NCBI GenBank assembly: GCA_946630785.1
Contig: CAMOZC010000006.1
Span: 1-34,131, forward strand
Direction: 5' to 3'
DNA from: an uncultured Clostridia bacterium
GTDB taxonomy: Bacteria > Bacillota > Clostridia > Christensenellales > UBA1242
Length of the DNA stretch: 34,131 bases
Both the position numbers and the translations under genes were made by a program. The notes below the pieces were generated by a model that saw nothing but the letters and a program-made list of their open reading frames with translations, made no database searches and was not told the DNA's origin. Shown here piece after piece: positions 19,199 through 32,916 of this stretch (position 1 is its first letter; the number at the start of each line of letters is the position of its first letter).

Positions 19199-20224
19199 AT
19201 GACAAGCAATCAAAATTTAAGGGCTGCAAGTAAAGCGAAAAACGATGAATTTTACACACAATTAGTTGATATTGAATTAGAATTAAAACATTACAAGGAA
19301 CATTTTAAAAACAAAGTTATTTTTTGTAATTGTGATGACCCTTATGAAAGTAATTTTTTCAAATACTTTGCCATGAATTTTAACTATTTAGGTTTGAAAA
19401 AATTAATTGCCACTTGTTATGATAATTCGCCAATTGTTTATACTCAGTTTTCTATATTGGGTGTAAATGAAAATAAAATCTATCCAAACGAAAATCGTCA
19501 TGCTTATAAAATTGAAATTAACGAAGTTGAAGATATGAATCATGACGGGGCAATTGATTTAAGTGATGTGCAGTTGTTATTACAAAACAAAAAGAACACT
19601 CTTGTCCACTTAAAGGGTGATGGCGATTTTCGTAGTGAAGAATGTGTTGAACTTTTAAAACAAGCCGACATCGTTGTAACTAATCCGCCATTTTCTTTGT
19701 TCCGTGAATATGTATCTCAACTCGTAGAGTATAATAAAAAATTTTTAATTATCGGCAATAAAAATGCGATTACATATAAAGAAATTTTCAAACTAATTAA
19801 AGAAAATATGTTATGGCTTGGTTATAGAAATATCAATTCGGATATGTGGTTAATAGTTCCCGGAAATTATGCTTGTGAAAAAGTAATTGATGGAAAAAGA
19901 TTAAAACATATTATGGCGTGTTGGTTTACAAATCTTGAAACGACAAAAAGACATGAAAACTTGATTTTGTATAAACACTATAATCCTGATGAGTATCCCA
20001 AATATGATAATTATGACGCCATTAATATTGATAAAACATGTGATATTCCTTGCGACTATGATGGTTGTATGGGGGTTCCAATAACATTTTTGGATAAGTA
20101 TAACCCTGACCAGTTTGAAATTCTTGGCGATAGTCGATTCCATGATGGGCAAGAATTTTCAGATGATATAAATATTCTTAATGGTAAGGCTCTTTACAGA
20201 CGACTTCTAATCCGTAGAAAATAA
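19199..20224 (+). CDS. EcoRI-family adenine-specific DNA methyltransferase
   Basis: KNDEFYTQ, VIFCNCDDPYESNFFKYF, LKGDGDFRSEEC, IVVTNPPFSLFREY (motif IV NPPF). Confidence 0.85.
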   Translation: MTSNQNLRAASKAKNDEFYTQLVDIELELKHYKEHFKNKVIFCNCDDPYESNFFKYFAMNFNYLGLKKLIATCYDNSPIVYTQFSILGVNENKIYPNENRHAYKIEINEVEDMNHDGAIDLSDVQLLLQNKKNTLVHLKGDGDFRSEECVELLKQADIVVTNPPFSLFREYVSQLVEYNKKFLIIGNKNAITYKEIFKLIKENMLWLGYRNINSDMWLIVPGNYACEKVIDGKRLKHIMACWFTNLETTKRHENLILYKHYNPDEYPKYDNYDAINIDKTCDIPCDYDGCMGVPITFLDKYNPDQFEILGDSRFHDGQEFSDDINILNGKALYRRLLIRRK

Positions 20225-20247
20225 TAAATTCTTAATAAGGAGAAAAA

Positions 20248-21357
20248 ATGGAAATTAAATTACACGAAATTTTAGTAAAAGATGTTGTTAATGGTTACAA
20301 GGATAGCCAAGAAAATGGTGTTGTTGGGTTCGGTGGGAAATTAAATATTCGTCCGGTGTATCAAAGAGAGTTCGTTTATAAAGAAAAACAACGCAATGCC
20401 GTCATTGAAACACTACGACAAAATTTCCCGCTAAATGTGATGTATTGGGCGGAAACCGATGACGGCAATTACGAATTACTAGACGGACAACAAAGAACAC
20501 TGAGTATTTGCCAATATGTGAATAATGACTATTCTATCAATAGTCGTGGCTTTGAAAATTTAACCCAAGCAGAAAAAGACCAGGTTCTCAATTACAAATT
20601 GATGGTGTATATCTGCAAGGGTAACGATAAAGAAAAATTAGACTGGTTTAAGATTATCAATATCGCTGGCGTTCAACTGAAAGAACAAGAATTGCGTAAC
20701 GCAATTTATACTGGACCATGGTTGTCGGATGCAAAACGCTATTTCAGTAAAATTGGTTGTGTGGCTTATCAAATTGGTAACAAATATGTTAATGGCGAAG
20801 TCAACCGTCAAGATTATTTAGAAACTGCATTAAGTTGGATTGCAGCAAAAGAAAATATCAAATTGGAAGATTATATGGCTAATCATCAACACGATACTCA
20901 CGCAACACCATTGTGGCAATATTTCCAAAATGTAATTAACTGGGTGGAAAGTATTTTCCCGCATTATCGCAAAGAAATGAAGGGTTTGGAGTGGGGTTTG
21001 TTGTATAATGCTTATGGTCAAAAAAACTATAACCCGCAAGAATTAGAAACAAAGATTGTTGAGCTGATGCAGGACGATGATGTTACCAAACGCAGTGGTA
21101 TTTATGAATACTTATTAAGTGGCAACGAAAAGTTTTTAAATATTCGCGCATTTACCGATAATGAAAAACGCCAAGTTTACGAACGACAACAAGGTATTTG
21201 TCCGCATTGTAAAAATGAACATCGCGAAAAAACACATTATGAAATTGAAGAAATGGAAGCCGACCACATTACGCCTTGGTGCGAAGGCGGCAAAACCGAA
21301 GTTGCAAACTGCCAAATGCTTTGCCGCGAACACAATCGAATGAAGAGTAGTAAATAA
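20248..21357 (+). CDS. DUF262 + HNH endonuclease domain protein
   Basis: N-terminal IRPVYQREFVYKEKQRNAVIETLRQNFPLNVMYW...YELLDGQQRTLSICQ (DGQQR). C-terminal CPHCKNEH...EADHITPWCEGGKTEVANCQMLCREHNRMKS. SD AAGGAG. Confidence 0.88.
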   Translation: MEIKLHEILVKDVVNGYKDSQENGVVGFGGKLNIRPVYQREFVYKEKQRNAVIETLRQNFPLNVMYWAETDDGNYELLDGQQRTLSICQYVNNDYSINSRGFENLTQAEKDQVLNYKLMVYICKGNDKEKLDWFKIINIAGVQLKEQELRNAIYTGPWLSDAKRYFSKIGCVAYQIGNKYVNGEVNRQDYLETALSWIAAKENIKLEDYMANHQHDTHATPLWQYFQNVINWVESIFPHYRKEMKGLEWGLLYNAYGQKNYNPQELETKIVELMQDDDVTKRSGIYEYLLSGNEKFLNIRAFTDNEKRQVYERQQGICPHCKNEHREKTHYEIEEMEADHITPWCEGGKTEVANCQMLCREHNRMKSSK

Positions 21358-21415: not shown

Positions 21416-21492
21416 TGGTGCGAACGAGAGGATTTGAACCTCCAAGAATGCGCTTCTGAGACGCACGCGTATGCCAGTTCCGCCACGCTCGC
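21416..21492 (-). tRNA. tRNA-Leu (CAG), short variable loop, CCA encoded
   Basis: GCGAGCG TG GCGGAACTGGCATACGC G TGCGT-CTCAGAA-GCGCA TTCTT GGAGG-TTCAAAT-CCTCT CGTTCGC ACCA (77 nt). Confidence 0.92.
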
Positions 21493-21555
21493 AAGTGGTA
21501 TAGCATAAATCATTTCGGCGTCTTTGTCAAAAGTTGCGGGTACCTGGAAAAAGGT

Positions 21556-32786: not shown

Positions 32787-32862
32787 TGGTGTCAGCGACA
32801 GGACTTGAACCTGCAGAAACTGGTTCCTAAGACCAGCGCGTATGCCATTCCGCCACGCTGAC
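32787..32862 (-). tRNA. tRNA-Leu (TAG), short variable loop, CCA encoded
   Basis: GTCAGCG TG GCGGAATGGCATACGC G CTGGT-CTTAGGA-ACCAG TTTCT GCAGG-TTCAAGT-CCTGT CGCTGAC ACCA (76 nt). Confidence 0.92.
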
Positions 32863-32916
32863 ATGCAAAGTATTATAACTGATAAATCAGGATTTGTGCA
32901 AGTCGTTCTCGTGCCA

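Follow-up and report, generated by a model that had tools for sequence, protein, structure and literature searches.

Two leucine tRNA genes without a long variable arm

The window, i.e. the whole stretch of 34,131 nucleotides analysed here, is contig C6 of assembly G000 (895 kb, 68 contigs, 37.5% GC, 89% complete). It carries two leucine tRNA genes 11 kb apart (Table 1): ARAGORN predicts a tRNA-Leu(UAG) of 76 nt and a tRNA-Leu(CAG) of 77 nt, both including an encoded CCA, and both lie above the gathering score of the Rfam tRNA family RF00005 (61.8 bits, E 3e-11, and 52.7 bits, E 1e-8, respectively). The UAG gene reads GTCAGCG-TG-GCGGAATGGCATACGC-G-CTGGT-CTTAGGA-ACCAG-TTTCT-GCAGG-TTCAAGT-CCTGT-CGCTGAC-A-CCA. 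The initial annotation had described it as a 76-nt tRNA-Leu(UAG) with a 5-nt TTTCT loop between ACCAG and GCAGG; ARAGORN, Rfam and direct reading of the sequence agree with this description. In both genes the acceptor, anticodon and T stems have the usual 7/5/5 lengths, and the cloverleaf arms are recovered in minimum-energy folds. Taking a variable loop of 4-5 nt in a standard cloverleaf as type I, and a variable arm of more than 10 nt with a stem as type II, both are type I and neither is type II, the loop being 5 nt long in all copies of the genus.

Table 1. Features of the two leucine tRNA loci, in window coordinates.
Feature	Position	Strand	Basis
tRNA-Leu(UAG), type I	32787..32862	-	ARAGORN, Rfam RF00005, genus conservation
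5-nt variable loop TTTCT of the UAG tRNA	32815..32819	-	direct sequence reading
Sigma-70-type promoter (TGCACA/TTGCAC, 17-18 nt, TATAAT), 9 nt upstream of the UAG tRNA	32872..32900	-	
tRNA-Leu(CAG), type I	21416..21492	-	ARAGORN, Rfam, genus conservation
5-nt variable loop TTCTT of the CAG tRNA	21444..21448	-	direct sequence reading
Promoter TTGACA-17-TATGCT, 9 nt upstream of the CAG tRNA	21502..21530	-	

Both genes stand alone, each with a promoter of its own, and lie near smc and a uracil-DNA glycosylase gene, which is not the context of a phage or a tRNA array, and their neighbourhood is syntenic across members of the genus. An EcoRI-type methyltransferase and an HNH restriction enzyme adjoin the CAG tRNA (window 19199-21357). 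The segment at about 18.1-21.4 kb of the window has no match at the same place in three other genomes (G008, G009 and G004). A homologue of the methyltransferase adjoins the tRNA-Leu(AAG) gene of another genome, G013.

Conservation and the leucine tRNA set of the genome

Copies of the UAG gene are nearly invariant across the genus, and the tRNA sequence holds while the flanking DNA is diverged or unrelated. In G008, a C6-G67 pair of the acceptor stem has changed to U6-A67, which is a compensatory change. Despite the diverged flanks, other genus copies of the UAG gene carry a -10 box similarly far upstream, and other copies of the CAG gene retain both TTGACA and a -10 box. The armless UAG and CAG genes constitute a real and conserved exception in two isoacceptors and are probably functional.

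An inventory by ARAGORN over nearly all of the assembly yields five leucine tRNAs, i.e. type II tRNAs with the anticodons AAG (85 nt), CAA (87 nt) and UAA (87 nt) and the two type I tRNAs of the window. The conversion is thus partial, affecting two of five leucine isoacceptors, the CUR-type readers only; serine and tyrosine tRNAs of the same genome keep the long arm. The initial annotation had read the shared short loop of two isoacceptors as a trait fixed in the lineage rather than as one degenerate gene, and the genus-wide 5-nt loops bear this out. Since all genus members that yielded these genes have the short loops, and since the other three leucine genes measure 85-87 nt, a chance deletion does not explain them. 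The broader proposal of the initial annotation, a lineage-wide conversion of tRNA-Leu from type II to type I, holds for UAG and CAG within the genus and fails as a general statement, AAG, CAA and UAA being type II.

By the reckoning of the initial annotation, type II leucine tRNAs elsewhere in the genome that serve these codons would count against its reading. In the assembly (89% complete, nearly all of it read), no CUA/CUG-type leucine tRNA other than the armless pair was found, and a type II CUR-reading leucine tRNA was seen in none of the nine genus genomes with the type I form. Such a gene could lie in the portion missing from the window's assembly. For CUG the assembly shows no type II isoacceptor; CUA could in principle be decoded by inosine-34 on the type II AAG tRNA.

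Distribution among relatives

The host lineage consists of small-genome Clostridia-like gut bacteria. With a pattern that captures leucine tRNAs of either type, type I UAG and/or CAG genes were found beside type II AAG genes in nine of the ten genomes labelled as the window's genus (g1), the window's own included. The remaining family and order genomes among the matches listed have long arms. A survey of variable loops across the clade had been proposed at the outset; a type I-specific pattern run over 310 family genomes returns the nine g1 genomes and one genome of the sister genus g5 (G013), and no others. The trait is therefore lineage-wide in a narrow sense, comprising these nine g1 genomes and one sister-genus genome.

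The UAG tRNA of G004 (MAG "Clostridia bacterium RGIG7181", water buffalo cecum) is identical to that of the window. G013 has a type I UAG gene only, which differs by 2 nt from a g1 copy. The possibility that G013 is contaminated with sequence from a genus member was rejected, because its flanks and proteins are unrelated or distant. The tenth genome labelled as g1, G003, has a type II UAG gene; its genus label looks doubtful (RpoB 63-74%, LeuRS 40% identity).

On a wider scale, 3 of 392 genomes match in a scan of the class: the window's genome and two with phage-like tRNA arrays. A scan of GTDB contigs relied on a pattern that left out the T-loop; the matches listed are therefore mostly type II genes whose arm contains GTTC, and they give no estimate of frequency. 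Single type I leucine tRNAs were seen in two other bacterial MAGs, one beside sugar-metabolism genes (L299, 883-955) and one beside chromosomal-type genes (L206, 3923-3999); these are possibly independent cellular cases.

Genetic code and identity elements

In alignments to relatives, CUA and CUG fall on leucine at 59% (124 sites) and 61% (127 sites), respectively, comparable to UUA (63%) and UUG (64%), and the next residues after leucine at CUA/CUG sites are Ile, Val, Met and Phe. The most frequent aligned residue is the standard one for 61 of 61 codons. Judged from these alignments, the genetic code is unchanged and CUA and CUG specify leucine. With a leucine anticodon and codons that align with leucine, the UAG and CAG genes both qualify as tRNA-Leu in this respect. 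CUA and CUG together account for about 8% of leucine codons. At CGA and CGG sites of the assembly, 8-9.5% align with leucine, compared to 3.4% for CGC, in small numbers.

Leucine identity in bacteria depends on A73, A15-U48, G18G19, A20a and U8-A14 (PMC9976931). Read against this set, both type I genes keep all of these elements. Armless variants of E. coli tRNA-Leu are still leucylated, and the known bacterial LeuRS enzymes are independent of the variable arm (PMC9976931).

Among the distinct leucine tRNAs collected here, the bracketed G of the D-loop GGNA(G)ACGC is present in 138 of 144 type II and in 5 of 33 type I sequences (Fisher p about 1e-21, not corrected for kinship). The change in the D-loop goes together with the loss of the arm, and it may compensate in the tRNA core for the absent arm.

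Proposed origin of the armless genes

Based on this dataset, we consider it likely that the window encodes functional leucine tRNAs decoding CUA and CUG, that the arm of the UAG tRNA was lost in an ancestor of g1 and g5, and that both tRNAs are charged by LeuRS. In that ancestor, the UAG gene would have lost its long variable arm while the D-loop changed from GGCAGACGC to GGCATACGC. In g1 the CAG gene shares this armless form, which would have arisen through either duplication or parallel change. The elements that bacterial LeuRS reads, namely A73, the core contacts A15-U48 and U8-A14, G18G19 and A20a, are all kept, which may be why the arm could be dispensed with. With CUR codons so rare among leucine codons, the UAG and CAG tRNAs were probably under weak selection at that point. 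The analysis shows the structure, conservation and promoters of the genes, the code and the identity elements; we infer the charging by LeuRS, the order of events and the reason for fixation.

A rather unlikely variant of this history is a lineage caught in the middle of dismantling its type II tRNA-Leu, in which the CUR readers would have become armless first, a swap of LeuRS would have followed, and the form would have been selected, e.g. by escape from nucleases that cut variable arms, an escape that phages seem to have made repeatedly.

Such selection may also be considered by itself: arm loss could shield tRNAs, in these bacteria as in phages, against toxins or defence nucleases whose cleavage site on type II tRNAs is the variable arm. 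Septu and retron-Eco7 cut tRNA-Tyr in the variable loop, and the tRNA-Tyr of phage T5, whose loop is distinctive, is resistant (PMC13096335); armless leucine tRNAs are moreover present in phage tRNA arrays. However, three leucine tRNAs, all serine tRNAs and the tyrosine tRNA of the genome retain the arm, as do Ser and Tyr in the phage arrays, and no known nuclease that cuts the arm of tRNA-Leu was found in this analysis. We regard this explanation as unlikely.

The presence of armless genes in phages may alternatively suggest a horizontal origin of the type I genes from a phage tRNA array. Type I tRNA-Leu genes occur in many phages, and the tRNA-Leu(UAG) of a Vibrio phage shares the GGCATACGC D-arm and likewise has a loop of 5 nt. 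The Vibrio phages VspSw_1, PG07 and SJ1 encode tRNA-Leu(UAG) and tRNA-Leu(UAA) of 77 nt, and the T5-like Salmonella phage HMD-P2 has an armless, type I tRNA-Leu(UAA) of 77 nt. The Vibrio UAA gene matches hundreds of Salmonella and Escherichia phage records, with equal length among the matches listed; in T5 itself, tRNA-Leu(UAG) is type II (85 nt). Phage-like tandem arrays in two genomes of the class Clostridia (L429 and L430 in G405 and G479) have type I leucine tRNAs throughout, with type II Ser and Tyr. However, with loop and anticodon left aside, the UAG gene of the window is nearer to the cellular type II leucine tRNAs of its family (0.81-0.85) than to phage type I genes (0.75-0.76). The genes of the window are single, vertically conserved and under their own promoters, and 0 matches were obtained among 72,556 plasmid records. 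A phage source thus appears improbable.

Leucyl-tRNA synthetase

The initial annotation had proposed co-evolution with LeuRS; under such a scenario, the enzyme would have changed to accept armless tRNAs. A full-length LeuRS match lies at C13:12411-14780 of the assembly (L318), and its catalytic, editing, anticodon-binding and C-terminal parts align to T. thermophilus LeuRS. The g1 enzyme keeps its domains and still has type II tRNAs to charge; a few residues are deleted from its anticodon-binding domain. The valyl-tRNA synthetase (ValRS; G000:C14:2965-5115, L075) has 716 aa in the genus and is short in g5 and G003 too, whereas in several further genera of the same family it measures about 860-890 aa.

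By RpoB identities, which here stand in place of a multi-gene species tree for the kinship of genera, the nearest relatives of g1 are g5 (75%) and G003 (63-74%, two pieces), all others being at 58% or less. In the LeuRS phylogeny, g1 nests with G040, G017, G046, G049 and G023 (60-63%), and g5 and G003 fall elsewhere, the LeuRS of g5 being about 37% identical to that of g1. A single LeuRS clade is rejected (AU test, p-AU 1.3e-5). Because the kinship by RpoB and by LeuRS is in conflict and the single clade is rejected, LeuRS was probably replaced horizontally in g1 after the split from g5.

The apparent replacement and the small deletion are what co-evolution would have in its favour. However, G013 has a near-identical armless UAG tRNA together with a LeuRS of another lineage, and therefore the loss of the arm did not need the g1 enzyme. 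As three type II tRNAs are still in use and bacterial LeuRS does not need the arm (PMC9976931), we judge co-evolution to be very unlikely.

Reassignment of CUA/CUG to another amino acid read by the type I tRNAs is hardly credible: the type I form is indeed restricted to CUR readers, and in yeast mitochondria a non-leucine tRNA(UAG) took over CUN (PMC7609411), but two codon-alignment tests reject it, both codons aligning with leucine, and the leucine identity elements are intact.

Comparison with known systems

To our knowledge, the long extra arm of leucine tRNAs has been thought universal outside animal mitochondria. Text searches of the literature, with subscription papers outside their coverage, returned no report of a type I tRNA-Leu in a cellular bacterial genome. 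What is new is the armless tRNA-Leu as a cellular tRNA, contrary to a 2023 review; armless genes are already common in phages. The genes of the window look like a natural bacterial exception to the long-armed tRNA-Leu, and a natural case would place the arm-independence that E. coli LeuRS shows in the test tube in an evolutionary setting whose order of events can be dated. Annotation tools that expect a long leucine arm may mislabel such genes, and the armless form, common in phage tRNA arrays, could bear on the evasion of defence there.

Compared to bacterial type II tRNA-Leu, the genes of the window share the leucine-type D and T arms, NAG anticodons and the encoded CCA, and with E. coli tRNA1-Leu and the type II tRNAs of the family they share A73, A14, A15-U48, G18G19 and A20a. 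They differ in the loop of 5 nt, where the type II arm has 11-16 nt, and in the D-loop, GGCATACGC in place of GGCAGACGC.

The animal mitochondrial tRNAs-Leu (UUR and CUN) are also armless and are charged by LeuRS via A73 and A14 (PMC9976931). They are organellar and structurally relaxed, and all leucine tRNAs are affected, whereas the case described here is bacterial, with a well-paired cloverleaf and only two of five tRNAs concerned.

The phage type I tRNA-Leu genes (Vibrio Pogseptimavirus, T5-like Salmonella phages, Clostridia arrays) share the 5-nt loop, the leucine D-arm and often the same GGCATACGC D-loop. They supplement a host set, whereas the genes of the window are the only CUR-type leucine tRNAs found in their host and are more cellular-like. 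Yeast mitochondrial tRNA-Thr(UAG) and other CUN-reassigning tRNAs likewise have a UAG anticodon on a type I tRNA; in contrast to these, the genes of the window go with an unchanged code, have no His or Thr ancestry and possess a normal anticodon loop of 7 nt.
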